Shown: positions 1 to 54,241 of the stretch, one piece after another
Layout: every line of letters begins with the position of its first letter
How positions within the stretch are numbered: the first letter of the stretch is position 1
NCBI RefSeq assembly: GCF_001483745.1
Contig: NZ_LQBL01000032.1
Span: 1 to 64,000, forward strand
Direction of reading: 5' to 3'
Origin: Serinicoccus chungangensis
GTDB taxonomy: Bacteria; Actinomycetota; Actinomycetes; Actinomycetales; Dermatophilaceae
Length of the DNA: 64,000 nucleotides
Translations under genes and position numbers: made by a program
The notes under the pieces: generated by a model
Told to the model about the DNA's origin: nothing
Databases searched by the model: none
Seen by the model: only the letters and a program-made list of their open reading frames with translations

Positions 1-21
1 CCGTCTGGTGGTGGACATGCG

Positions 22-55
22 CAAGGGCCCGCCCCTGGTGTGGGGCGGGCCCTTG
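22..55 (-). terminator. rRNA operon terminator hairpin
   Basis: A perfect 14-bp inverted repeat (22-35 with 42-55) encloses a 6-base loop just after the 3' end of 5S rRNA on the minus strand. The stem is almost all G-C. No clear U-tract follows, so this is a strong-stem terminator of the kind common in high-GC bacteria. Confidence 0.8.
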
Positions 56-65
56 CGTGAATGGT

Positions 66-185
66 GGTCCGGCGGTGTCCTACTCTCCCACACCGTTCCC
101 AGTGCAGTACCATCGGCGCTGTCAGGCTTAGCTTCCGGGTTCGGAATGTGACCGGGCGTTTCCCTGACGCTATGACCGCCGTAAC
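66..185 (-). rRNA. rrf: 5S ribosomal RNA
   Basis: Read on the minus strand, the region starts GTTACGGCGGTCATAGCG and ends with the complementary CCGCCGGACC, giving the terminal helix of 5S rRNA over about 120 nt. The conserved CCGAACCCGGAAG loop lies in the middle. It is the last gene of the operon. Ends are approximate to a few bases. Confidence 0.95.
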
Positions 186-246
186 ATGTTTGACCATGTC
201 ACCAACATCAACCATGTGGGGTTGGGTTGGTTGTGGGTCAGGAACC

Positions 247-264
247 GTGCAGTGGACGCGAGCA
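247..264 (-). other. 3' arm of the 23S rRNA processing stem
   Basis: The 18 bases at 247-264 in the 23S-5S spacer are complementary at 17 of 18 positions to 3456-3473 in the 16S-23S spacer. The two arms bracket 23S rRNA, so in the precursor they should form the long helix normally cut by RNase III. That role is inferred from position and known rRNA maturation. Confidence 0.7.
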
Positions 265-292
265 AAAATAGGGCTGTTGATGCTTGGGGTTG

Positions 293-5448
<5,156 letters not shown>

Positions 5449-5630
5449 ACAAAACCATTACCGAACAGATAACGATCCCAACAAAAACCACAACCAGCAC
5501 CCGGGGGCGGGCACCAGCCATGGCAAACAAAACATGGCATCAAAAAACAAACACGCTGTTGAGTTCTCAAGAATCGGACACACACCATCATCCGTGCGCT
5601 TTCGCGCCGTGATGTCCGGGGCTTTCTTCT
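5449..5630 (-). other. rRNA leader with boxA-like element
   Basis: This transcribed leader lies between the promoter and 16S. On the minus strand it holds TTCTTGAGAACTCAACAG near 5551-5575, matching the actinobacterial rRNA leader motif linked to antitermination and processing. A GCGCGAAAGCGC tetraloop hairpin lies at 5596-5607. No gene is present. Confidence 0.65.
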
Positions 5631-5660
5631 AGGTTACGCACCCGCGCTTCCGGGAGTCAA
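5631..5660 (-). promoter_or_regulatory. rRNA operon promoter (sigma-70 type)
   Basis: On the minus strand TTGACT (5655-5660) and TAACCT (5631-5636) are separated by exactly 18 bases, directly upstream of the rRNA leader. Only one clear promoter is seen. The expected start is near 5623. Confidence 0.75.
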
Positions 5661-5664
5661 ATCC

Positions 5665-5685
5665 CGTCCGAGCCCTGCTCGGACG
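5665..5685 (-). terminator. Possible terminator between tyrS and the rRNA promoter
   Basis: A perfect 9-bp stem (5665-5673 with 5677-5685) with a 3-base loop lies about 120 bases after the tyrS stop codon and just before the rRNA -35 box. It could end tyrS transcription, but it lacks a U-tract. The remainder of 5686-5801 holds nothing I recognise. Confidence 0.4.
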
Positions 5686-5801
5686 CTGTCGATGCGTGGT
5701 GCCGTACCCGGGACCGGCCACCTCTCGGTGTCCGTGCCTCCCTGTCGGTGCGGCGAGATGAAACTTTAGGCGACGCCGGCCGCGGACCACAAATCGGCTG
5801 G

Positions 5802-7064
5802 TCAGGAGGCCTTTCGGACCGCGGCGAGGCTCTTGCGGCCCCGCTTGAGCAGAGCCACCTGGCCGTGGAGGAAGTCCTCCGGGGTCAGGAGACGGTCGAC
5901 GTCGTCCACCCGCGCGTTGTTAAGGCTCACGCCACCGTCGCCGACCAGACGCCGGGCCGCTCCCCTGCTGTCGGCCAGGCCGGTGCGCACCAGTGCGTCG
6001 AGCAGGCTGTCACCCGCCTCCGCCGACCCACCGGGCAGCTCGGCCGTGGCGTCCCGGAGCGTGCCGGCCTCGAGCGTCGCCGGGTCGGCCCGTCCGAAGA
6101 GGACCTGGCTGGCCGCCTCGACCTGCGCGGTGGCCGCCGCACCGTGGACGAGGGTCGTGACGTCGGACGCCAGGGCCCGCTGGGCCTCGCGCAGGTGGGG
6201 CCGCTCGCGGGCCGACTCCTCCAGGGCGCTGATCTGCTCGGCGTCGCGGTCGGTGAAGACGCGCAGCAGCTTGCCGGTCTCCCCGTCCGCCACGTTGATC
6301 CAGTACTGGTAGAAGGCGTAGGGAGAGGTCATGTCGGCCGAGAGCCACACCGCGTTGCCCTCGGACTTGCCGTACTTCATGCCGTTCTCGTCGGTGATGA
6401 GGGGCGTCGTGAGCACCTGGACCGAGGCCCCTTCGACCCGGTGGATGAGGTCGACCCCCGCGGTGAGGTTGCCCCACTGGTCCTGGCCGCCGGTCTGGAG
6501 CGTGCAGCCGTACTCGCGGAACAGGTGCAGGTAGTCCAGCCCCTGGAGCAGCTGGTAGCTGAACTCGGTGTAGGAGATCCCCTCCTGGCTCTGCAGCCGG
6601 GCGGCGATGGCCTCCTTGCGGATCATCTGGTTCACCCGGAAGTGCTGGCCAACGTCCCGCAGGAAGTCCAGCGCGCTGAGCGGCGCCGTCCAGTCGAGGT
6701 TGTTGACCATGACGACCGGGTTGTCCCCCTCGACCTCGAGGAACGGCCGGACCAGCTCCTGGATCCGCGCGACGTTCGCCGCGGCCTCGTCCTTGGTCTT
6801 GAGGACCCGCTCAGCGGTCGCCTTCGGGTCGCCGATCAGGCCGGTCGAGCCCCCCACCAGGCAGATGACGCGGTGACCCGCGCGCTGCAGGTGGCGGAGC
6901 ACGATGAGCTGGACGAGATTGCCGAAGTGCAGCGACGGCGCGGTCGGGTCGAAGCCGCAGTAGACGGTGATCGGTCCGTCGTCGAAGGCCTGGCGCAGGG
7001 CGGCCTCGTCGGTGGTCTGCGCCACCAGGCCCCGCCACCGGAGCTCGTCGAGGATGTGGGTCAC
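5802..7064 (-). CDS. tyrS: Tyrosyl-tRNA synthetase
   Basis: This cytoplasmic class I aminoacyl-tRNA synthetase charges tRNA-Tyr. The 420 residues match the usual TyrRS length. The HIGH-type motif is HFGN (residues 46-49) after YCGFDPTAPSL, and the KMSKS loop appears as KYGKS near residue 230. An S4 RNA-binding domain fills the last 70 residues (SRGAARRLVGDGGVSLNN region). The start is ATG at 7064. It lies downstream of mpg on the same strand, the same pairing known in Mycobacterium, so both probably once shared a transcript. The element in mpg now separates tyrS from argH by an extra 7 kb, so it may rely on a promoter nearer by. Confidence 0.97.
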   Translation of the reverse strand: MTHILDELRWRGLVAQTTDEAALRQAFDDGPITVYCGFDPTAPSLHFGNLVQLIVLRHLQRAGHRVICLVGGSTGLIGDPKATAERVLKTKDEAAANVARIQELVRPFLEVEGDNPVVMVNNLDWTAPLSALDFLRDVGQHFRVNQMIRKEAIAARLQSQEGISYTEFSYQLLQGLDYLHLFREYGCTLQTGGQDQWGNLTAGVDLIHRVEGASVQVLTTPLITDENGMKYGKSEGNAVWLSADMTSPYAFYQYWINVADGETGKLLRVFTDRDAEQISALEESARERPHLREAQRALASDVTTLVHGAAATAQVEAASQVLFGRADPATLEAGTLRDATAELPGGSAEAGDSLLDALVRTGLADSRGAARRLVGDGGVSLNNARVDDVDRLLTPEDFLHGQVALLKRGRKSLAAVRKAS

Positions 7065-7118
7065 CGTGGGGTCCTTCCGGTCGTGGGGTCACGAGGTGCA
7101 CCTCGTGGTGGGTCCAGC

Positions 7119-7565
7119 CTACTGGCGGCCCACCCGGTGCCCCGAGGTGCTGCGCGGCTCGCCGCGGCGCGGCGCCGCCGCCCGGTACGCCGACACCGTC
7201 ACCTCCCCCGCCAGCCAGAACCGCCAGGGGAAGAGCTCGGCCGACCCGCCCTCGCCGCTCACCCCGACCCGCGGTCCCGTGCGGACCGCCCGCTCCTCCG
7301 GGCGGCCCGTGCCCGACGGCGCCGTGAGCGAGACCGGGGAGCCCGGAGCGCACAGGTCCAGCCCGTCGTGCTGCCGGTCGAGCCCCAGGGCCCGCCCCAG
7401 GTTGCCCGGCCCGCGGGCGAGGTCGCGGTCGGCGACCGGGCTGGCCCGCCCCCGCTCACGCCGGCGCCGGGCCAGCGGCACGCCGTCGACCACCTCCCCG
7501 GCCCGGATCAGGACGGCCGACGCCGCGCCCGCCGTGCCGGTGACGATGTTGGCGCAGCAGTGCAG
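7119..7565 (-). pseudogene. mpg: 3' remnant of the host mpg gene (3-methyladenine DNA glycosylase)
   Basis: Reading in frame from the junction at 7565 gives LHCCANIVTGTAGAASAVLI and continues to a TAG at 7119. This is the C-terminal two thirds of an Mpg/AAG-type glycosylase (motifs GPGNLGRALGLD, TGPRVGVS, PWRFW). No start codon or ribosome binding site precedes it. Its missing N-terminal part lies 7 kb away at 14633-14904; the two parts join in frame at the 2-bp core (...LSHG then LHCC...). The fragment is interrupted by the integrative element and is unlikely to make an active enzyme. Confidence 0.9.
7564..7565. other. Left attachment-site core of the integrative element
   Basis: Host mpg sequence ends at plus-strand TGCAG (7561-7565), then element sequence CCCCTTGCG begins. 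The dinucleotide AG (CT on the minus strand) is shared with the right junction at 14633-14634. Two-base cores are usual for large serine integrases. The exact bases are inferred from rebuilding an uninterrupted mpg reading frame. Confidence 0.65.
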
Positions 7566-7598
7566 CCCCTTGCGCTGTCGTTGTCTACATAGCGCAGC

Positions 7599-8438
7599 TC
7601 AGGAGCTAGACCCTCGGCGCACCCTCTCCCACTGCATGAGCCTGCCTAGCGGATTGTCCTCATCGACATAGGTGACCACTCGGGCATCGAGGAAGGTGCC
7701 ACCCCGCGTTCTCATTCGCAGGCTCTCCATGGCGGTGGCGCAGTTCTCCTGCAGCACGCGCATGTCTTCATCTAGGTGGAACAGGTCAATGACCCCGCGG
7801 TCGTACAGCAGGAGTCCCTGCAGGGGCAGGAACAGCCGCAGCCCCGAGCTGTCATCGTCAATGTCGGAGTCCCGGCCCTCGATCTGGCGCAGCACCATGC
7901 TGCCGTCGCTTACGTTCCACGGTCCGACGTGCCGCGCTTCGTCACTGTGGTAAGCGCGATCTAGCCGTTCGTCGACATGCTCCAGACCGTCACGGACACC
8001 ACGGATGTCGTACAGCGGGGAATCGCTCAACTCCGGCGCATCAAGGTCGATCAGCACCCGCAGTCGCGCCGCGCGCTCAGTAGCGAGCCGGGTACGGTCT
8101 GCCTTGGAACCCCACTCCTCCCGATTGCGCACGTGCGGATCGAGGATGCGATTGATGATGGTGGCCGCGAATAGGGCGCCCTGTAGGTGTCGCACAGCGG
8201 CGTCGAACTCGCTCGACTGCAGAGCTGCATCCATGGCGTCTTCGAAGCTGGCGATGAACATGCCCGCCTGAGTCTGCAGCTCATCGAGGAAGGCTAGATC
8301 GCGCAGATCCGCCGTCGCCTCGTCGGAGGCTCCCCTGGTGGCTCGGATGACAGAGCCGCGAGGTAGCCGACTGATGCCGCCCAGTCGCGACACCTCGCCC
8401 TTACCTCCGGCCTCTTGATCATCGGCCAGCGGGCTCAC
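7599..8438 (-). CDS. Hypothetical protein of the integrative element (279 aa)
   Basis: I do not recognise the family. The protein is soluble-looking, acidic, with no signal peptide or membrane segment. Residues about 50-130 look helical (LQTQAGMFIASFEDAMDAAL), and the C-terminal half carries a hydrophobic stretch, LRLFLPLQGLLLYDRG. The GTG start at 8438 overlaps the stop of the upstream lipoprotein gene (GTGA), so the two are translationally coupled. It is the last gene before the left attachment site, only 33 bases away. In the excised circle its transcript would run straight into the element's mpg. Function unknown. Confidence 0.65.
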   Translation of the reverse strand: MSPLADDQEAGGKGEVSRLGGISRLPRGSVIRATRGASDEATADLRDLAFLDELQTQAGMFIASFEDAMDAALQSSEFDAAVRHLQGALFAATIINRILDPHVRNREEWGSKADRTRLATERAARLRVLIDLDAPELSDSPLYDIRGVRDGLEHVDERLDRAYHSDEARHVGPWNVSDGSMVLRQIEGRDSDIDDDSSGLRLFLPLQGLLLYDRGVIDLFHLDEDMRVLQENCATAMESLRMRTRGGTFLDARVVTYVDEDNPLGRLMQWERVRRGSSS

Positions 8439-9106
8439 TCTTGGTACAGCTCCAGGTCTGGGTTCTTCACCACGAACACTGGGTCGCCGTTGTAGTCATC
8501 GAACGCGAGCCAGCCGAACTCGGCATCCAGCCCGTGGAATGCAGTCAGCCACGTCCCGGTCTGCCCCTGCATGAGCCCCGTCTGGCAGTTCTGCCCCTCG
8601 ATGAATCCCGGTTGCTCGACCATGAGCATCTCCCGCCCCTCCACGTCGAATGCGTGAAGGTCCATCGCATAGGGGCCGTGGCACTCCTTCGCCACGGACT
8701 CCGAGAGGTTGTTCGTCCAGGTGATGTCTACGTACCAAAGCCGCTCGCCCTCCTCCGGCTCCAGGACGGCGGGCATGTCGGGCAGCCCGTTGGGCATAGG
8801 GATGCCGTCGCGGTCCTCGATGGCGTTGACCACAAGGTCCGCCGTGGGGCTTTCGGCTGGCTCTCCGATCTGGTGAACCTCGATAGCCTCGGGCTCGGTC
8901 GTCTCCGGCGCTTCACTCGTGGGCTCCTCGGATGTCTCCTCCTCGGTCGACTCGGCCTCACTGGTCGCCGCCTCGCTCGTCGGGGCCTCGGAGATAGTCG
9001 GGGCTTGCGTGGCGGGTGCAGATTCCGGCTCGCCCTCTGACCCCCCACACCCGGCCAGCACTAGTCCACCGACAAGAACAATGCCCACTGATCCCCGCAG
9101 CCTCAT
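8435..9106 (-). CDS. Predicted lipoprotein of the integrative element
   Basis: From ATG at 9106 the protein begins MRLRGSVGIVLVGGLVLAGC, a classic type II signal with lipobox LAGC, so it is expected to be lipid-anchored on the outer face of the membrane. A Glu/Thr/Ser-rich linker (residues about 25-75, many EETSEEPTSEAP-like blocks) leads to a folded domain of about 140 residues with a WYVDITWTNN strand, reminiscent of DUF4352-like immunoglobulin-type lipoprotein domains (tentative). An open frame extends to 9193, but the signal peptide fixes the start. It overlaps the next gene by four bases and its true start lies inside the upstream gene's 3' end. Confidence 0.7.
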   Translation of the reverse strand: MRLRGSVGIVLVGGLVLAGCGGSEGEPESAPATQAPTISEAPTSEAATSEAESTEEETSEEPTSEAPETTEPEAIEVHQIGEPAESPTADLVVNAIEDRDGIPMPNGLPDMPAVLEPEEGERLWYVDITWTNNLSESVAKECHGPYAMDLHAFDVEGREMLMVEQPGFIEGQNCQTGLMQGQTGTWLTAFHGLDAEFGWLAFDDYNGDPVFVVKNPDLELYQE

Positions 9107-9155
9107 TTCGGGAGAGTAACAACCATTAGCCCCGAGGACTTGCTGGGAGCACACA

Positions 9156-9674
9156 TCAAGTACGACGGGCAACGTTCTTCCACCACCGCTCACCCCGTAG
9201 GGCTCGCCGCATGGCCAGCTCCAGCCCCCTTTGAGCTTCCCCGGCCCTCACGGCAGCCGCTGCTCGGGTGTTGAGGTCTGGCGCATGCGCCTCATCCTGA
9301 ATCGCCAACCGCGCCTCGTGACTCGCCTCATCGGCCTCCCTCACTGCGACCGACCATGCCCGCTCGACCCCGCCAGGCCCGAGCAAGCCCAGCCTGACGG
9401 ATAGGGCACCGAAGCGACCCCAGTGCTCCTCGCTGAGCCTGCCCGGCTCCGACGCGCCAGGCCCCTGGTACCCGGGCACTTCCCATGCCCGCTCCAGGGG
9501 CGAGTCTGGATACTCACTCAAGAACTCCAGCGCGTCGATGTAAACCTCCAGCCGCTTGTCCCTGAGCCATGCGGCATGCCCGGTGCGGCCCTGTAGGCGC
9601 TGGCCGAGCCAGACGCCCAATAGTGGGAGTAGAGCGAGCCCGAAGACGCCCAGTGAGGGCAATGCCTCAGTCAT
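9156..9674 (-). CDS. Membrane-anchored hypothetical protein (172 aa)
   Basis: An N-terminal hydrophobic segment (residues about 6-24, SLGVFGLALLPLLGVWLG) precedes a charged, probably helical cytoplasmic part (RLEVYIDALEFL; AREADEASHEARL-like region). No known domain is recognised. The ATG at 9674 overlaps the stop of the upstream gene by 8 bases, and its tail overlaps the lipoprotein gene's upstream region. Its layout (one N-terminal membrane helix, then a helical soluble part) resembles the neighbour 9667-10218, so the two may act as a pair at the membrane. Function unknown. Confidence 0.6.
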   Translation of the reverse strand: MTEALPSLGVFGLALLPLLGVWLGQRLQGRTGHAAWLRDKRLEVYIDALEFLSEYPDSPLERAWEVPGYQGPGASEPGRLSEEHWGRFGALSVRLGLLGPGGVERAWSVAVREADEASHEARLAIQDEAHAPDLNTRAAAAVRAGEAQRGLELAMRRALRGERWWKNVARRT

Positions 9675-10218
9675 CCGCCGCCTCCTTACTCGTCACGCCG
9701 TACCCGCCCTCTATGCCCAACTCCCGTGAAGCCGCCTCGACGTATGTGTCTACGGCGGCGTTCGCCTCCGCCATTGACGGTCCACTGTCCTCCCCGCCTC
9801 TGTCCTTCCTCGTGCGAGATGCCAGGCACCGGAGCCCTGCCTTGTTGGCCGCGCGGGCAAGATTGGCCGTGCTGGCGGGGCCTGTAAGCCGCACAACAGC
9901 GACTGACGCGCTTGCTCGTGAAAGGAGCCTCGTCGCCTCACCAACATCCGAGGTCCAGCCATTGACCAATCCTGAAAGGGCGTCAATACATTCGGCGTGG
10001 GCCTGCTTGCGCTCCTCGCGCTGGCGCAGCCGCTCGGCCCGCTGGGCCTCCTCGCGCCGATGCCGGTCCTCGTGCTCGCGTTGCTTACGCGCCTCGGCCG
10101 CGCCGTGCGCGAGCGCCTTGTCGGTTGACTTCGACTGCCACCGGGCGCCGACCCAGGCACCTGCCACGGTGCCGATGACAGGTAGTGCGTACCGCAGGAA
10201 CTCCCAGAACTCAGCCAC
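9667..10218 (-). CDS. Membrane-anchored coiled-coil hypothetical protein (183 aa)
   Basis: I choose the GTG at 10218 because GAGAGGG lies about eight bases upstream. The protein then begins with a hydrophobic segment (FWEFLRYALPVIGTVAGAWVG) at residues 3-25. A long, highly charged Arg/Glu/Gln coiled coil follows (about 40-75, REHEDRHRREEAQRAERLRQ), then a helical C-terminal part. The open frame extends to 10374, but the added residues look unlike coding sequence. No family recognised. The stop overlaps the start of the next gene by 8 bases, which implies coupled translation. Confidence 0.65.
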   Translation of the reverse strand: MAEFWEFLRYALPVIGTVAGAWVGARWQSKSTDKALAHGAAEARKQREHEDRHRREEAQRAERLRQREERKQAHAECIDALSGLVNGWTSDVGEATRLLSRASASVAVVRLTGPASTANLARAANKAGLRCLASRTRKDRGGEDSGPSMAEANAAVDTYVEAASRELGIEGGYGVTSKEAADD

Positions 10219-10468
10219 TGTGATGCCCTCTCGTGTGCCGTCGTGTCCCAGCCTGCCAGCGCCTACTGACATTCCCGGGTGCAGGCGGTGAGGGTGGGGT
10301 ATGACCCCCTGCAAGGCGATCCCCAATACCGGGGGGTGATAGCTCCTCCCATTCTGCGAGAGAACCAGGGCCAATATGAACTCGCTGCAGCTCCAGTATT
10401 CCGCGCCACGACTGGCTCAGCGCCGTGCGCACCCCTGCACGCTTTGTACCACTTGTTGTGTCAGCCAT
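10211..10468 (-). CDS. Doubtful small ORF upstream of the membrane-protein pair (85 aa)
   Basis: An ATG at 10468 opens a frame (MADTTSGTKRAGVRTALSQS...) whose stop overlaps the next gene's GTG by 8 bases, the same overlap style as its neighbours. The first 55 residues look plausible; the last 30 are low-complexity. No ribosome binding site is evident and no family is recognised. The stretch 10469-10625 shows no other gene. This could be a real short protein or the untranslated leader of the operon. Confidence 0.25.
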   Translation of the reverse strand: MADTTSGTKRAGVRTALSQSWRGILELQRVHIGPGSLAEWEELSPPGIGDRLAGGHTPPSPPAPGNVSRRWQAGTRRHTRGHHSG

Positions 10469-10629
10469 GATGCCGGATGAGCCCCAGGGCACGCGGACGG
10501 GTCTCCGCGCCCCTGCCGGTGCAGACTTTCGCGCCGTCCAGCGTGCCGATGCTGGGGGTAGTTCGCTCAAAATCTGGAGGGCTCCCCCAGGGCCAACGTG
10601 AACTCGTGCTGGCCCAGGACGCAAGAAAG

Positions 10630-10675
10630 GCCCCCACCCTGGGGCCTCTCTCGTGGAAGCTCCCGGGGTGGGGGC
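10630..10675 (-). terminator. Terminator downstream of the HNH-like gene
   Basis: A near-perfect G/C stem (GCCCCCACCC arm at 10630-10639 with its complement at 10666-10675) is followed on the minus strand by CCTTTCTT. It sits just after the stop codon at 10686 and separates that gene from the membrane-protein operon, which must have its own promoter in 10470-10620. Confidence 0.65.
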
Positions 10676-10685
10676 GTGGTGGTGC

Positions 10686-11393
10686 TCAGTGGTGCTCAGC
10701 CTCGTCGCCGGGGTGCGGCACTAGGCCGTGGGCAACGGCGTAGGCGTGGTGGACCAGGCTCAGGGCGTGGCGAGGTGCGGCCGCAGCTCGTGCGGCATCC
10801 CAGGTGCGGTGGCACGGTCGGCACGCCGGGGCGTAGTGCTGGGGGTCTGCTGAGTAGGTGAACCCCACCTCGCGGCCGTGCTCCTCGATGAGCTGGTCTG
10901 GGTCAGCGCTGAGGTAGGCCCACTGGTCCGCTCGTCGGCCGCAGCGGAAGCAAAGGAGCTCACTCGCCCGGCCTCGCGCGGCCACGATGCGCTGGTGGGC
11001 AGCCGAGTAGGTGGGGCGCTCGATGTGGCGGGGGTCGGGGTGGCGCCCCCGGTCGGCGCAGTCGCTCGTCCGTCCGCCCGTCACGTTGGACAGCTTCAGC
11101 TCCTTGACGGTGCCGCAGTCGCACCGGAACCTCGCGCGCCGATGGTCTCCCAGGCGCTCGGTGAGCACCAGGCTCCCGAACCTGTCGCCGGGGTTGTGCT
11201 TCAGCTTGCGAGGTGTGGGGTTGCTCTCTCGGTGCGCCCGGGAGCGCGCCGCCTGTCGTGCCGTCCTGACCTTGCCCTGCCAGCGCTTGCAGGTGTCGCA
11301 TGTCGTGCGAGGAGGTCCGGGGGTGCCAGGTGCTCGGGGCGGGAGCTCGCGGCCGCAGTGCCGACAGGCGGGGGTGCTCGGTGGGGTGGTCAT
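10686..11393 (-). CDS. HNH-like zinc-cluster protein (phage/mobile-element type)
   Basis: ATG at 11393 is chosen because an AAGGAAGG-type site lies upstream. Residues 9-12 (CRHC) and 35-38 (CDTC) form a possible first zinc site. The middle part (FGSLVLTERLG ... FRCDCG ... SDC) matches the pattern of a small domain common in phage HNH proteins. The C-terminal part, CFRC plus CRPCHRTWDAA, looks like a degenerate HNH/zinc module. The product is probably nucleic-acid binding and possibly a nuclease. The family assignment rests on motif patterns only, and a complete H-N-H triad is not obvious. Confidence 0.55.
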   Translation of the reverse strand: MTTPPSTPACRHCGRELPPRAPGTPGPPRTTCDTCKRWQGKVRTARQAARSRAHRESNPTPRKLKHNPGDRFGSLVLTERLGDHRRARFRCDCGTVKELKLSNVTGGRTSDCADRGRHPDPRHIERPTYSAAHQRIVAARGRASELLCFRCGRRADQWAYLSADPDQLIEEHGREVGFTYSADPQHYAPACRPCHRTWDAARAAAAPRHALSLVHHAYAVAHGLVPHPGDEAEHH

Positions 11394-11591
11394 GCGCGGT
11401 TCTTTCCTTCCTTGGGTGGTCCGGGGTAGGGGTGGTCCGGGGCCAGAATGGCCCACTCCCGTAGGCCCCTGACCTGCGGCGACGCTCTCGATAGGCAGGC
11501 CGTTTCAGGGGTCCTGGGGTGATTACCTTCAGAGGCCAGAAAGGGGCCATCTATCGGGAGCATCGTTGCTGGTCAGAGACATATGCCCAGG

Positions 11592-12158
11592 TCAGGCCGC
11601 ACGACGCTCGCGCTCTCGGGTGCGCCGTGCGGCTCGGGTGCACGCCTCGGTGCAGTAGCGAGCCCGGCCGGTAGCTCGGAATCCCTCCCCGCAGTGCGCG
11701 CAGGGCTTGCCCTCCGTGCCGCCCTTCAGCAGCTCGGCCAGCTCGGCACGATTGGCCTTGGCATGGTTGGACCGGGCAGGCACCTGGTTGGGTCGCCAGT
11801 CGTCGGCGCGGCGGCGCAGGGCCAGGTAGGCGCGCAGGGCCTTGCGGTCGGCCTCGGTGGGCACCTCGGCCAGGGCGGAGCCCAGGTCACGGTGCAGCGC
11901 CCAGTCGGTCCAGCCGGTGACCTCGCGCAGCACCCTGCGGCCCTGCTCGGTCCTGACCTTTTCGCAGGGCTTGCAGCCTGCCGTCGGGTGGCTCGTGGTG
12001 GTCCCTGCCAGGGCGAGCGGCAGGTGCTCCAGGCGGGCAGCTCGGGCGGCGCAGGGGTTGCACAGCCCCTCGGTGGCGTAGCGGTCTCTGGGCCGGGTCG
12101 TCGGCGCTCCCTTGGGGTCGCCCGACGTCCGGGAGGAGGGCGCGCCGTAGACGTCCAG
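11592..12158 (-). CDS. Zinc-cluster protein with an unclear start
   Basis: The frame is open from a stop at 12159 to 11592 (188 sense codons) but contains no ATG; the only GTG is at 11933. Upstream of that GTG the frame still encodes paired cysteines (LCNPCAARAA and GCKPCEKV), and the C-terminus has CAHC...YCTEACTRAARR, a phage-type zinc ribbon. The coding signal therefore runs beyond the GTG, and a CTG directly after the stop at 12159 is the only other candidate. Coordinates give the full open frame. It may be translated by coupling to the upstream gene, or may be damaged at its 5' end. Role unknown, perhaps DNA binding. Confidence 0.45.
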   Translation of the reverse strand: MDVYGAPSSRTSGDPKGAPTTRPRDRYATEGLCNPCAARAARLEHLPLALAGTTTSHPTAGCKPCEKVRTEQGRRVLREVTGWTDWALHRDLGSALAEVPTEADRKALRAYLALRRRADDWRPNQVPARSNHAKANRAELAELLKGGTEGKPCAHCGEGFRATGRARYCTEACTRAARRTRERERRAA

Positions 12159-12172
12159 CTAGGAGCTAGGGG

Positions 12173-12491
12173 CTACAGCCGCACCGGGCCGACGGCCGGG
12201 TGCCAGCTCGTGCCCTCGTGCACCAGCGCCACCACCTCGGGCAGCACCCCATCCTCCGTGAGGTAGACGAACGTCCCGTCGTCCTCCTCGGCCACCTGCC
12301 AGCCCAGCCGGTAACAGCTCCCTCACTGCCCGGCCCCAGTCGGCCTCCTGCATCGACATAGGTCCACCCTCGGCCAGCGGATCGTCGATGTCGTCGCAGG
12401 GTGCCGGGCGCAGGAGCCCTCCTACCCCCTGCCCCTCGTGCAGTAGTGCCGTGTGCGTCCCGAACTCCAGCGTCCTCGTGTGCTCGATCAT
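12173..12491 (-). pseudogene. Small element gene with a single-base frameshift
   Basis: ATG at 12491 has a good ribosome site (GAGAGGAC) and opens MIEHTRTLEFGTHTALL. Around 12318-12330 coding sense leaves this frame. Removing one G from a GGG run gives ...ELLPAGWQVAEEDDGTFVYL and a continuous protein of about 105 residues ending at 12173. The interval is 319 bases, that is 3n+1, as expected for a one-base insertion. The cause is either a true mutation or a sequencing error. Family not recognised; the repaired product is small, acidic and soluble. Confidence 0.6.
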
Positions 12492-12552
12492 GCGTCCTGT
12501 CCTCTCTGTCGTGGTCTCTCACTAGGTGCCGCCCGTCGGGCCTCAGTCGGTG

Positions 12553-14019
12553 TCACTCGCCCTCTGGGTCGCCCTCGCCCGTGCTGGGCGTGATGATCCG
12601 CAGGGCCAGGTCATTGGCCCAGCCGTTGCGCTCGAAGGCCAGTAAGGATCGGTCCGGCTTCGCCTTGGAGCCGCGCCCGCGTGGCGCGCAGGTGATCGCC
12701 CCGAACAGGTGGCGTAGCAGCTCGCGCCGCCCGTCCTGCCCGCGCTCCCGGTCCTGCCACCACGCGAGCATCCCCTCACGGTCCAGCTTATCGACGGCGA
12801 GCCCGCCACGCCCCCGCTCCAGGCCCTCCAGCTTGCCCTCGACCTCGGCCAGCTTGGCAGTGGTCGCCGCCTGCTCAGTCCTCCACTGCTCGCGCGTCAG
12901 CAGCCCCTCTCGCCTGTCCTCCAGCAGCTCGCCCACCAGCCCTCGCAGGCGCTCCACCTCGGCGCGAGCGGCGTGGACCTCCTCCGTGATCCCTTCCCCC
13001 TCCGAGGCGGGGTGGAAGCTCGGAGAGGAAAGCAGTGCAAGGGCCGTCTCTGACAGGTGCTCGTCCAGCCACTCGCGCGGCCAGGCGTTGCATCGCTTCG
13101 TGCAGCAGTAGTACCGATACGTCTTGCCACGTTGGGTCTGGCTGAACACGCGCATAGCGCCGTCGCAGCTCGCGCAGAACAGCAGGCCGGTCAGCAGGCC
13201 GGTGCGCTTGGTGCTCGCCGCCTGGCGTCGCCCCGGCCGGGTCAGCTCGCGCTCCACTCGTCGGAACGTGTCCTCATCGACTAGCGGCGCCCAGGTGCCG
13301 TAGGTGTCCAGCTCCGTGTGCACACCCCCACCCTCTGAGCGGGTCAGCTTGCCGATGTTGCGGGGATGGATCAGCAGACCCCGCACCGTCGTCGGCCTGA
13401 ACTCCCCGCCCTCGGGCTTGTTCCTGGTCTCAGTAGTCCTGACGCCTGCCTCGCGCCAGGCGCGAGCAATACCGGCGATGCTCGCACCCTCCAGCACCTG
13501 GGCATAGGCCCGGCGCAACAGCGCGGCCTCGCTCTCGCGGAGAGTCCCGTCCATGTTGTAGCCGAACGGTCGCCGGACCCAGAACGGACGCCCCTGGCGT
13601 CGCCTCTGCTCGTGGGCCGAACGCTGGCGCTCTCCCTTCTGCTCGGTTTCGTAGGTCGCCCACGCGGTGACGGTGCGGGCGACGGCGCGACCGGCAGGGT
13701 TGGACAGGTCCAGCTTGCCTCCGGCCACGGTGTGCACGTCCACGCTCAGCTCCAGGACACGCTCCAGCTCCGGCGTCAGGCGGACCAGCCGGTCCAGGTG
13801 CCAGCAGACGATGCGCTCGGGCTTGCTCTCCAGCAGACGCTCAAAGGCTGGCCGCAGCTTGCCGCTCGTCGCGCTGATCGAGTTGTCCACCAGCACCTCC
13901 GAGACCTCCCATCCGCTGCGCTCGCACAGCTCCCGACACTCTCGCTCCTGGCGCTCGACCCCGGCCCCCTCGCCCGTGGCGTCCAGGCTGATCCGGGCGT
14001 AGATCGTCGCCGTGCTCAT
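12553..14019 (-). CDS. int: Large serine recombinase (integrase)
   Basis: This site-specific recombinase is expected to join element attP to attB in mpg. The 488 residues show the full large-serine layout. The resolvase catalytic domain (1-145) opens with YARIS, giving nucleophile Ser11 and Arg9, and later WHLDRLVR. A recombinase domain spans about 150-270 (RRPFGYN, FRPTTVRGLL, GKLTR). A zinc ribbon follows with C282/C285 and C306/C310, then a coiled-coil segment (about 340-400) typical of integrases. The ATG overlaps the stop of the element's mpg (ATGA), so both are co-translated. No excision factor is recognised, though any of the small proteins could be one. Confidence 0.95.
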   Translation of the reverse strand: MSTATIYARISLDATGEGAGVERQERECRELCERSGWEVSEVLVDNSISATSGKLRPAFERLLESKPERIVCWHLDRLVRLTPELERVLELSVDVHTVAGGKLDLSNPAGRAVARTVTAWATYETEQKGERQRSAHEQRRRQGRPFWVRRPFGYNMDGTLRESEAALLRRAYAQVLEGASIAGIARAWREAGVRTTETRNKPEGGEFRPTTVRGLLIHPRNIGKLTRSEGGGVHTELDTYGTWAPLVDEDTFRRVERELTRPGRRQAASTKRTGLLTGLLFCASCDGAMRVFSQTQRGKTYRYYCCTKRCNAWPREWLDEHLSETALALLSSPSFHPASEGEGITEEVHAARAEVERLRGLVGELLEDRREGLLTREQWRTEQAATTAKLAEVEGKLEGLERGRGGLAVDKLDREGMLAWWQDRERGQDGRRELLRHLFGAITCAPRGRGSKAKPDRSLLAFERNGWANDLALRIITPSTGEGDPEGE

Positions 14020-14621
14020 CGAGCCACCCCCTTGGCGTCGGCCCTCGGGCTACGTCGGTAGGTGGAGACGGTGCCGTCTCCCGTGATCCAGAACCGCCAG
14101 GGCACGTCGGCCGCACGGGACACGCCTACGCGCGGACCCGAGCTGATCGTCTCGACCGGCTTACCCGGCTCCAGCCACACGGGAGACTCCCGGTCCAGCA
14201 GGTCTGTGCCGTAGTCCTCCCCCGTGATGCCCAGCGCGCGGGCTAGATTGCCCGGCCCGCTCGCCAGCTTGTGCGCGGGCAGGCTCCCCCGTCGCTCCAG
14301 CGCTAGGGCCTCCCCCTCCACTACCTCGCCAGCTCGCAACAGCACGGCACTGGCGATGCCCTCAGTCCCAGTAACAACGTTGCAGGCCCAGTGCGCCCCA
14401 TAGGCGCGATACACGTACAGCAGTCCCGCCCTGCCGAACATGGCCCGTGTCCGCTCGGTCTCACCCCGCCAGGCGTGCGAGGCCGGGTCATCGCCTCCGG
14501 CGTAAGCCTCGGTCTCGGTGATGCGCAGGACGGTGCGGCCCTCGGCAGCGTCGCGCACCAGCAGGCAGCCGAGAAGGGCGCACGCCACCTCGGTGGCCGA
14601 GCCACGAATCTGTATGTCCAT
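14016..14621 (-). CDS. mpg: Element-borne 3-methyladenine DNA glycosylase (Mpg/AAG family)
   Basis: This complete 201-residue glycosylase excises alkylated purines such as 3-methyladenine in base-excision repair. Family marks are present: [10 protein letters not shown] (catalytic Glu), [45 protein letters not shown] and PWRFW. It differs clearly from the split host copy, so it is not a duplication of it. Its ATG lies only 12 bases from the right attachment core. It therefore sits just behind the truncated host reading frame and should be expressed from the host argH-mpg transcript. Its stop overlaps the integrase start. The copy probably keeps the cell repair-proficient after integration (inference). 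Confidence 0.93.
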
Positions 14622-14632
14622 ATCGGCATCGT

Positions 14633-16330
<1,698 letters not shown>

Positions 16331-16849
16331 TCAGGTGGCGTCGCGCTGATCGGGCTCGGCCGCCAGCGCGAGCAGCCGGTGCGCCGTGTCCGGGCCACCC
16401 GCGGGGTCCGTGGTGATGACGAGGATGGTGTCGTCCCCGGCGATCGTGCCCAGGATGTCCTCGGCGTCGCTGCGGTCGATGGCCGAGGCGAGGAACTGCG
16501 CGGCGCCCGGCGGCGTGCGCAGGACCACCTGGTTGCCGACCGAGCGCGCGCTGACGAGCAGCTCCTGGCAGAGCCGGGCGAGCCGGTGGCTGACCTCCAC
16601 CTGGTCCTGGGCGGGCCGGGGGGTGTGGTCACCGCCCTCACCGGGCACGGCGTAGACCAGCTGTCGCCCGCGGCGCACCTTGACCGCGTCCAGCTCGACG
16701 AGGTCGCGGGACAGGGTGGCCTGGGTGACCGAGATGCCGTCCTCGGACAGCAGGTCCAGCAGCTGCCCCTGCGAGCCCACCGCGTGCCGTTCCAGCAGGT
16801 CGCTGATGCGCTGGTGTCGCGCGGCACGGGTCATGGGGATGGAGCTCAC
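16331..16849 (-). CDS. argR: Arginine repressor
   Basis: ArgR binds ARG boxes with L-arginine as co-repressor and acts as a hexamer. The N-terminal winged helix ([17 protein letters not shown], then [13 protein letters not shown]) spans residues about 10-80. The C-terminal oligomerisation/arginine-binding domain includes [12 protein letters not shown], with the DD pair expected to contact arginine. The GTG at 16849 is used here because a TATAGT hexamer ends eight bases upstream, suggesting a leaderless message; an ATG at 16834 is the alternative. It is transcribed toward argH. Confidence 0.93.
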
Positions 16850-16871
16850 GATGCACGACTATACCGACGTC

Positions 16872-16885
16872 TGCAAGATTATACA
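16872..16885. promoter_or_regulatory. Possible ARG box upstream of argR
   Basis: TGCAAGATTATACA matches 7 of the 10 fixed positions of the TGAAT-N4-ATTCA operator pattern and overlaps a TATAAT hexamer on the minus strand. Position between argR and the divergent gene at 16923 fits autoregulation. This is inferred from pattern only. Confidence 0.4.
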
Positions 16886-16922
16886 CCCAGGGGGGCACCC
16901 GGGAGAGCGCTAGCGTGCACCC

Positions 16923-17321
16923 ATGGCGCACCCGCTCATGGTGGACCCGGACAGCCCGCTGCTGGGGCGGCTGCGGGCGCTCTGCCTGGCGCTCCCAGGG
17001 TCCGCGGAGAAGACCAGCCACGGGCACCCGGCGTTCTTCACGGTGAAGGTGTTCGCCTACGTCGGCGCCTCGGTCAAGGTCGACGGGGCGTACGTCCAGC
17101 ACCCGGACTCGGTGGTCGTGAAGCCGCACCCCGACGAGGCGCGGGCCCTGCTGGAGCAGCCCCGGTGCTTCCGGCCGGCCTACCTCGGCCCCGCCGGCTG
17201 GGTGGGCGTCGACCTCGACGACGACAGCGACCGGCTCGAGGTCGCCGAGCTCGTCGAGGAGTCCTACCGCGCGACCGCCCCCCGCACCCTGGTCACCCGG
17301 CTGGATGCAGGTCGGGGATGA
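16923..17321 (+). CDS. MmcQ/YjbR-family protein
   Basis: The 132-residue protein has the family pattern: LPGSAEKTSHGHPAFFTVKVFAYV near residues 20-45, a later VVKPHPDEARALL block, and WVGVDLDDD in the C-terminal half. Members fold like a small double-wing DNA-binding domain; their role is not firmly known. The ATG at 16923 follows TAGCGT (16911-16916) by six bases and has no ribosome site, so the message is probably leaderless. It is divergent from argR. Confidence 0.8.
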   Translation: MAHPLMVDPDSPLLGRLRALCLALPGSAEKTSHGHPAFFTVKVFAYVGASVKVDGAYVQHPDSVVVKPHPDEARALLEQPRCFRPAYLGPAGWVGVDLDDDSDRLEVAELVEESYRATAPRTLVTRLDAGRG

Positions 17322-17324
17322 CGA

Positions 17325-17344
17325 GGACCCCGAGGGTGGGGTCC
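17325..17344 (+). terminator. Hairpin between convergent genes
   Basis: GGACCCC at 17325-17331 pairs with GGGGTCC at 17338-17344 around a 6-base loop, four bases after the MmcQ-like stop codon. It could serve both converging genes. The stem is short and there is no T-run. Confidence 0.4.
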
Positions 17345-17387
17345 CTCGGAGGCACCCCGTCCCCGGACGAGCGGCGTGCTCACGTGC

Positions 17388-18326
17388 TCACGACCCGGCG
17401 CCACCCCAGAGCTCCTGCAGGAGCCGCACGGCGGCCTCGCCGCGGGAGCGCTGGAAGGGACGCAGGGTGGGCAGCCCCGGGGCGGCCGGGCGCCGGGCCG
17501 CGTCGAGCAGGTAGCCGCCCAGCCCGGCGACGACGCCCAGGACGTCCTCCCGGGTGGCACCCAGTGCCTGCAGCGCCGGTAGGTGGCGGGGCAGGTCCAC
17601 GTCGCCGACCGCCCGGACGTCCACCAGGAGCGAGGTGGCGTCGAACCAGGCCGCGCCGCGGCTGGCCCACGGCCAGTCGACGACCCTGACCCGGCCGCCC
17701 GGCTCGACCAGCAGGTTGTCGGCCCGCACGTCGGTGTGCACGACGGCGTCTCCCGAGAGCCGGGCGAGGATGCGCAGGGACAGGTCGTGCAGCTCCGGCA
17801 GCCGGGGGGCGAGCCACGGGTCCAGGTCGGGAGGTGGGTCCTCGACGACCCGTGCCCAGCAGCCGAAGGGCTCGGCCAGCTCGGTCGGCAGCTCCGGCCA
17901 GGAGCGGGGCGCGGGGTGCTGGGCGACCTCCCCCAGGGCGTCCAGGGCGGCTGCCAGCTCGTCGGTGGCCCATGGTGCGTGCGGGTGACGGCCGTCGACC
18001 ACCTCGGTCATGACCGCGACCCACCCCTCCTCGTCGAGGACCCCGAGCAGGGCCGGGGCGACGTCGAGACCGTCCGCGGCGAGACCGGCGAGCACCGCGG
18101 CCTCGCGGCGGTGCAGACCGGGCGAGTCCGGGTTGGGGTGGGGGCCGACCGCCTTGACGAAGGCCCGCCCGCCGCCGCCCGTGCGGACCCGGTCGGCCGA
18201 GCCCGGGGAGAAGCCGCCCGGCTGGGAGACCGCCTCCACGACGGGGCCGCCGAGGACGTGTGCGGCCCAGTCGTGCACCACGGTCGGCAGCTCGGCCCAG
18301 CGGAGACGGACGCCGAACTCCTCCAC
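17388..18326 (-). CDS. Aminoglycoside phosphotransferase (APH)-fold kinase
   Basis: About 312 residues with the APH catalytic core: VVHTDVRADNLLV (catalytic Asp within HTDVRADN) and VVDWPWA (the Mg-binding DW motif). FVKAVGP earlier supplies the ATP-binding lysine. Members phosphorylate small molecules or sugars; the substrate cannot be told here and resistance is not implied. GTG at 18326 starts one base after the SDR stop, so it ends the pheS-pheT-SDR-APH operon. The frame is open to 18413, but that part overlaps the SDR coding region. Confidence 0.85.
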   Translation of the reverse strand: MEEFGVRLRWAELPTVVHDWAAHVLGGPVVEAVSQPGGFSPGSADRVRTGGGGRAFVKAVGPHPNPDSPGLHRREAAVLAGLAADGLDVAPALLGVLDEEGWVAVMTEVVDGRHPHAPWATDELAAALDALGEVAQHPAPRSWPELPTELAEPFGCWARVVEDPPPDLDPWLAPRLPELHDLSLRILARLSGDAVVHTDVRADNLLVEPGGRVRVVDWPWASRGAAWFDATSLLVDVRAVGDVDLPRHLPALQALGATREDVLGVVAGLGGYLLDAARRPAAPGLPTLRPFQRSRGEAAVRLLQELWGGAGS

Positions 18327-54167: not shown

Positions 54168-54168
54168 G

Positions 54169-54241
54169 TGGGCCCGGCCGGGCTCGAACCGACGACCTAC
54201 GCGGTGTAAACGCGGCGCTCTACCAGCTGAGCTACAGGCCC
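54169..54241 (-). tRNA. tRNA-Val (anticodon TAC)
   Basis: 73 bases without encoded CCA. The acceptor GGGCCTG pairs with CGGGCCC, D arm GCTCAGCTGGTAGAGC, anticodon loop TTTACAC with TAC at 54206-54208, and T loop TTCGAGC with a five-pair stem. The first anticodon-stem pair (27-43) is a C-T mismatch. It lies in line with the Nif3-like gene, two bases apart. Confidence 0.93.

Follow-up and report, generated by a model that had tools for sequence, protein, structure and literature searches.

A small integrative element splits mpg in Serinicoccus chungangensis and carries a complete, divergent Mpg: a probable site-specific swap of a DNA-repair gene

Introduction

In the tRNA-dependent lysogeny of actinobacteriophages, a host tRNA gene is disrupted and the incoming element brings a complete equivalent (PMC10865867). 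Here we describe a comparable arrangement at a protein-coding gene, in a stretch of 64,000 nucleotides from Serinicoccus chungangensis (contig NZ_LQBL01000032.1, positions 1 to 64,000; hereafter the window). A small mobile element splits the host methylpurine-DNA glycosylase gene, mpg, which lies between argH and tyrS, at one exact spot, and carries a complete Mpg of its own. We consider it very probable that the element swapped the repair gene by site-specific insertion and that the replacement was then retained.

Other described systems share parts of this arrangement. The serine integrase of mycobacteriophage Bxz2 is reported to insert into a putative DNA glycosylase gene, Msmeg_5156 (PMC9262239), so that there too a serine-integrase attB (the bacterial attachment site) lies within an actinobacterial protein-coding gene for a DNA glycosylase; the available part of that paper, however, neither names the glycosylase family nor mentions a replacement gene. 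The streptococcal chromosomal islands called SpyCI sit in mutL and silence repair reversibly (PMC4129442); they too are mobile islands at a conserved attB of a DNA-repair locus, and no replacement gene is mentioned in the portion of the source available. Further islands integrate in dusA (PMC4482086). Some elements rebuild the end of their target and so escape or lower the cost of insertion, a benefit that the window element may share. The dusA islands and the integrators at tRNA ends rebuild the target end in this way, leaving a hybrid of the original gene. Here, by contrast, the whole gene is replaced by a homologue that is about half identical.

The closest precedent in logic is tRNA-dependent lysogeny, and in target it is Bxz2. 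Common to the former and to our locus are a destroyed host gene, a junction that does not rebuild it, and a complete equivalent, functional or (here) predicted to be so, on the element. The described cases involve tyrosine integrases and an essential tRNA gene and were shown by experiment (PMC10865867), whereas here the integrase is of the serine type, the target is a dispensable protein-coding repair gene, and the case is known from sequence. The target is mpg and not a tRNA gene, the only tRNA gene of the window lying at 54168-54241. In addition, the replacement abuts attR, the right attachment junction, and appears to outlast the decay of the element. No report of integration into mpg by name, or of a replacing Mpg, was found in the open-licence literature, which is weak evidence of absence.

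Results

Host mpg is split by a clean insertion

Along the minus strand, argH is followed by the first 90 codons of mpg; a 7,069-bp insert comes next, and then the remainder of mpg and tyrS. Both host parts match the Pfam family Pur_DNA_glyco (PF02245), the 5' part over profile positions 5-71 (3.7e-24) and the 3' part over positions 73-180 (7.6e-29), and they are continuous in the close relative G003. By DNA alignment, window positions 4116-7568 correspond to positions 1-3463 of the G003 segment (93.8%) and positions 14633-18213 to 3459-7001 (90.5%). G003 is free of the insert, and its two aligned stretches, of 3,463 and 3,543 bp, overlap by five bases. As the window flanks abut within 5 bp in the uninterrupted G003 gene, the insert represents one clean event. 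The GC content of the element (0.685) is below the 0.734 and 0.741 measured for comparison, and the third-position GC (GC3) of the element mpg is 0.82, whereas the four host segments measured lie at 0.95-0.98; both differences mark the insert as foreign. An earlier note, made from the letters of this DNA, had described one broken host mpg with a complete, divergent Mpg just inside the right junction, and both descriptions hold. The features that carry the argument are as follows, in window coordinates.

14897..16318, minus strand: host argH, upstream of mpg (open reading frame (ORF) list; beside Mpg in 26 of the 27 other matching genomes of the genus)
14633..14904, minus strand: host mpg 5' part, 90 codons, to ...YVYLSHG (Pfam PF02245; continuous with the 3' part in G003)
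14616..14660, minus strand: attR, possible cores CT at 14634-14633 or GG at 14637-14636 (sequence and alignment to G003)
7566..14632, no strand: integrative element, 7,069 bp core to core (absent from G003 DNA; lower GC)
14016..14621, minus strand: element mpg, complete, 201 residues (Pfam 1.9e-62, profile 6-180 of 181)
12553..14019, minus strand: large serine integrase, 488 residues, R4/phiCAM-like (domains; phrog_95 integrase 1.7e-85)
7550..7592, minus strand: attL, the left attachment junction, possible cores CT at 7565-7564 or GG at 7568-7567 (sequence and alignment to G003)
7119..7565, minus strand: host mpg 3' part, starting LHCCANIVTG (Pfam PF02245, profile 73-180)
5802..7064, minus strand: host tyrS, downstream of mpg (ORF list; beside Mpg in 26 of the 27 other matching genomes of the genus)

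The undivided locus is well represented among relatives. An Mpg match was found in 28 of the 31 genomes of the window genus, the window genome counted; argH and/or tyrS lies near it in all 27 others (flanks of up to 1.5 kb), and both do in 25. An uninterrupted Mpg ORF, defined as at least 75% of the query covered, is present in 26 of these 27; the same split lacking an element, which would have told against the earlier note, was not seen. In the 27th, G013, Mpg consists of two overlapping pieces in different frames.

Insertion interrupts host mpg just past its YVY..(Y/H)G codons; the element Mpg stands directly behind the 5' fragment and has the same orientation. Its first codon lies about a dozen bases inward from attR, and its stop codon shares an ATGA with the start of the integrase gene. 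The earlier note had proposed a 2-bp core, and the boundaries that it gave hold if this core is CT. A 2-bp core would fit in either of two registers three bases apart, CT and GG, both of which suit the window junctions and give 7,069 bp. The CT register agrees with three close relatives (GGCCTG in G003, G027 and G028; GGGCTG in G020). No dinucleotide register other than GG suits the window junctions together with those of a second element in the family, in genome G077 (see below). A core that is certainly CT was rejected, since CT is not shared by G077. In one locus of the probable Streptomyces genus treated below (L223), attL and attR have ACCTACGGCATGT in common; both junctions are readable there and in L204.

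The element Mpg is complete and distant from the host gene

The element Mpg is the only complete Mpg match in the window genome. It scores 233 bits against the NCBIfam model for DNA-3-methyladenine glycosylase (cutoff 182), contains a full-length PF02245 domain, as members of the AAG/Mpg family do, and aligns to solved 3-methyladenine glycosylase chains with six active-site positions kept. The same six letters occur in 41 of 41 element Mpgs aligned (L236 left out). We take the solved chains to be human, and the positions to be Glu125, Tyr127, His136, Tyr159, Asn169 and Arg182 of human AAG. From these features, the replacement Mpg looks functional.

The element gene could in principle be a duplicate or a diverged copy of the host gene, as it belongs to the same family and is 52% identical to the Mpg of G003, but we regard this as extremely unlikely. 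In a tree of 126 Mpg rows, it falls in a 55-row clade (98/90) together with distant actinobacterial and other element Mpgs, and host Mpgs of the window genus lie outside that clade, G021 apart; its exact placement is rough, since the bootstrap is unsettled and the window row is long. The GC3 difference also speaks against a host copy. Judged by tree and composition, the element Mpg is not a recent copy of the host gene; had it been one, this would have told against the earlier note. Within the same tree, the element-type Mpg of another family genome, G154, is sister to the element clade of the probable Streptomyces genus (100/90).

In G021, the Mpg (L004, 1492-2118) belongs to the element-containing clade and lies beside tyrS, with an ORF that by eye is acyltransferase-like between argH and mpg. 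This Mpg is possibly an old swap without remnants.

Searches of plasmids and phages with the element Mpg gave only matches below 60% identity, and scans of viral contigs gave nothing beyond two, L062 and L063. These contain, around 10001-10558, a complete Mpg on a long branch of the tree, 54-55% identical to the window element Mpg and amid unrelated ORFs; no relative of the window integrase was detected in their 10-kb flanks.

The same site is used elsewhere in the family

Splits at the att position were found at least three times among 186 genomes of the family, the window included. The number is a lower bound, since most single matches were not inspected, and single matches ending at a contig end (G056, G233) were left out of it. 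In G077, an insert of about 5.9 kb (L064, 5959-11870) lies between mpg residues 90 and 91, at the same codon position, and its integrase is sister to that of the window (45% identity; tree support 100/100). In G154, the mpg 5' fragment ends at residue 90 with an in-frame stop and is followed by the complete element-type Mpg; neither an integrase nor an mpg 3' part was detected before tyrS. Several Mpg matches with no insert at the att position were seen in G013, G041, G047, G048, G070, G102, G150, G169, G170, G173, G177, G178, G182 and G255.

Separately, mpg occurs as a head-to-tail tandem at one locus in L106, L107, L108, G048, G070, G169, G170, G173 and G177, spanning several genera of the family; in L106-L108 this is the argH-tyrS locus. 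In L108 (G069), a frameshift breaks the second copy near residues 94-96, not far from the att position, and no insert is present there. These tandems may descend from old swaps or from duplications.

Element-type Mpg genes recur in a second genus

A class-level search matched 285 of 394 genomes, and two Mpgs of one genus, both adjoining host mpg fragments, ranked right after the window's own. This genus is probably Streptomyces. An element-type Mpg (71-100% identity to that of L160, E 3e-87 or better) is present in 40 of its 392 genomes, G643 and G653 included; the best match among the other 352 is 2e-54, and the remaining matches listed reach at most 53% identity. Together with G077 and G154, these genomes answer the earlier expectation of further elements at mpg.

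The same flank gene adjoins the element-type Mpg in all 40 carriers, and the replacement is intact in 38. A host 5' remnant is detectable in 33 and ends at residue 85/86 in 31 of them; the remnant frame has its first stop in an overlap with the replacement start (ATGA), again in 31 of these 33. The integrase query, itself truncated at the N-terminus, was covered over at least 384 of its 437 residues in four carriers, less in eight and not at all in 28, several carrier contigs ending early. Among 14 carriers compared, the deletions differ, and all lie after the replacement Mpg. No second full-length host-type Mpg was found in the 40 carrier genomes. We also inspected 27 further genomes of the genus, 7 that match weakly and 20 from the 25 that have no match: in none did a fragment end at residue 85-88, the 20 were again without a match, and mpg stops elsewhere in G1090 (at 76) and in G902 and G1240 (at 105).

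A minimal cassette (L204, 3060-4110) consists of the replacement Mpg and about 0.4 kb between its two att junctions. No integrase was detected there, and its flanks are close to an uninterrupted relative; the cassette might be mobilised in trans. At L160, an ORF for a reverse transcriptase/maturase, group II intron-like by eye, lies inside the element at 9522-11234, beside the truncated integrase.

These positions bear on whether Mpg is ordinary cargo, carried for its own sake and matching the disrupted gene by coincidence. Mpg does travel on phages outside this setting, as in L062, L063 and the low-identity matches in 13 phage records; the G077 element occupies the same site without an Mpg; and Bxz2 is reported to insert into a putative DNA glycosylase gene, with no mycobacteriophage among those 13 records. 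Yet Mpg lies immediately inside attR, on the strand of the host gene, in the window and G154 as well as in 31 of the 33 remnant-bearing genomes of the second genus. This counts against the explanation, because cargo that has no relation to the target would not have to occupy that place. We judge coincidental cargo to be improbable.

The element encodes a large serine integrase and no recognised phage or conjugation genes

The window integrase combines Resolvase N-terminal, Recombinase and zinc-ribbon domains in one 488-residue protein, as large serine integrases do. Its phage relatives reach about 45% identity over about 70% of the length, and the integrases of phiCAM, Verabelle, Pablito and R4 share an 18-row part of the integrase tree with it (94/95). 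The R4-type integrases of Streptomyces phages have the same domain order; unlike those phages, the window element has no recognised phage structural gene. Indeed, capsid, terminase and tail genes were not recognised among the ten ORFs compared with PHROGs, integrase included, and by this measure it does not qualify as a prophage. Relaxase, FtsK-like translocase and mating-pore genes were likewise absent among the ORFs scanned (Pfam, PHROGs, NCBIfam), as would not be the case in an integrative and conjugative element or its actinomycete form. A defence role was considered and dropped, none of the eight proteins scanned having a PADLOC match. The other ORFs of the element are as follows.

11592..11933: small protein with weak HNH-like or unknown phage-family matches (phrog_32573 1.8e-7; phrog_1271 HNH 1.2e-5)
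10686..11456: HNH-like protein of unknown function (phrog_22195 2.9e-37; phrog_374 HNH 4.9e-9)
9667..10374, minus strand: ORF without a family above cutoff (Pfam, PHROGs, PADLOC, NCBIfam)
9156..9674, minus strand: ORF without a family match (same four collections)
8435..9193, minus strand: probable lipoprotein of unknown function (lipobox-like N-terminus by eye; phrog_806 3.3e-6)
7599..8438, minus strand: left-end ORF reading toward attL, without a family match (same four collections)

The 11592..11933 and 10686..11456 ORFs are also on the minus strand. Scans of genome and viral contigs found no close relatives of the window integrase. With an alignment of two integrases as query, 17 loci were found in genome contigs and 4 in viral contigs; mpg stands beside the integrase in one of the 17, L109, a contig of a Phycicoccus metagenome-assembled genome that equals the G077 contig in length and match, and in none of the 4. 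In the R4/phiCAM-like phages Verabelle (L282, 2144-2196) and Pablito (L284, 2032-2172), a thymidylate synthase gene directly adjoins the integrase gene.

The replacement is probably often kept as the element decays

The median ratio of nonsynonymous to synonymous substitution rates (dN/dS) is 0.20 for element Mpgs (37 sequences; 666 pairs) and 0.26 for host-type Mpgs (10; 45 pairs). Taken together, the related actinobacterial cases suggest that the replacement often persists well beyond the decay of the remaining element. A 14-carrier clade (99/91) suggests an older insertion with Mpg kept throughout. On a tree of the flank gene (40 carriers and 20 uninterrupted genomes), carriers are scattered, with 15 changes of state, of which at least 8 are forced by well-supported branches.

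Within the probable Streptomyces genus, the swapped locus may instead have spread mainly by homologous recombination and not by repeated integrase action. The scatter of carriers would fit such a route, as would the failure to detect integrase in 28 of 40 carriers, with a nearly complete one in only 4, and a carrier with nothing but Mpg and about 0.4 kb in flanks 96% identical to an uninterrupted relative; in carrier G1004, a 2.9-kb flank is 96% identical to that of the uninterrupted G564. Conversely, most of the integrase survives in four carriers, L204 and L223 have readable att junctions on both sides, and the deletions are not the same among the carriers compared. We hold homologous spread to be a possible but doubtful main route; it alters how the locus spread and not the swap itself.

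Discussion

A sequence of steps can be proposed for the swap. The serine integrase would recombine attP on the element with an attB that lies in one of the most conserved stretches of mpg. Since insertion places the element Mpg directly downstream of the 5' part of the host gene, in the same orientation, the host mpg promoter would drive its transcription; in the G653 genus, the ATGA overlap would in addition couple its translation to the host leader. The replacement would restore methylpurine-DNA glycosylase, and the insertion would thus cost little. Loss of the integrase, of the attL side and of the host 3' fragment would follow, the replacement staying as the only Mpg of the species. The outcome would be a housekeeping gene exchanged for a distant homologue by site-specific and not homologous recombination.

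A number of observations weigh against this reading or limit it. In G077 (98% complete, about 110 contigs), the mpg halves are the only Mpg matches and no replacement is present, so the swap is not obligatory, which argues against a strict requirement of a replacement for integration. Mpg is naturally missing from some near-complete genomes (at least 90% complete, at most 5% contaminated): no match was found in 5 of 162 in the family and 23 of 380 in the G653 genus, and its loss thus appears to be tolerated. Because the replacement itself was the query that led to the 40 loci, its presence among them is favoured, although none of the 27 further genomes inspected had a fragment ending at residue 85-88. 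In the integrase tree, a third integrase, from L214, was not robustly grouped with the other two. When carrier labels were shuffled on the flank-gene tree, the mean was 16.8 changes and 87 of 500 shuffles were as low as observed; with labels no more clustered than this, the tree cannot separate gain, loss and homologous transfer. As to coupling, the window shows no ATGA arrangement, its host frame running past the element Mpg start. Elsewhere, the coupling frame is open for at least 90 codons in 29 of 39 loci, against 18 and 5 in the other two frames, a moderate signal since GC-rich DNA of this kind often has long open frames. The repair-gene swap put forward in the earlier note is supported; its suggestion that a cost needed hiding is softened by the natural absence of Mpg and by G077, and no evidence emerged for its further idea that repair might be altered in the element's favour.

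On balance, we lean towards a distinct class of small gene-swap elements, in which site-specific integration into a housekeeping gene is combined with a complete replacement that captures the host promoter and, in one lineage, ATGA-coupled translation; repeated insertion and decay would then form a regular route of exchange across species that bypasses homologous recombination. If this is true, about 1 in 10 of the species sampled in one large actinobacterial genus would today have an Mpg that came from such an element as their working copy.

To conclude, the mpg site may serve as an integration site usable in many actinobacteria, and the series of natural loci, which runs from elements that are nearly complete to a replacement gene standing alone, makes cost-hiding, promoter capture and domestication directly testable. 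The swap would show how an invader may destroy a gene of its host at little cost, and would carry the reasoning behind tRNA-dependent lysogeny over to a DNA-repair gene that codes for a protein. It would also provide a concrete mechanism by which core genes are replaced by distant homologues: a site-specific swap, followed by erosion of the element that brought it.

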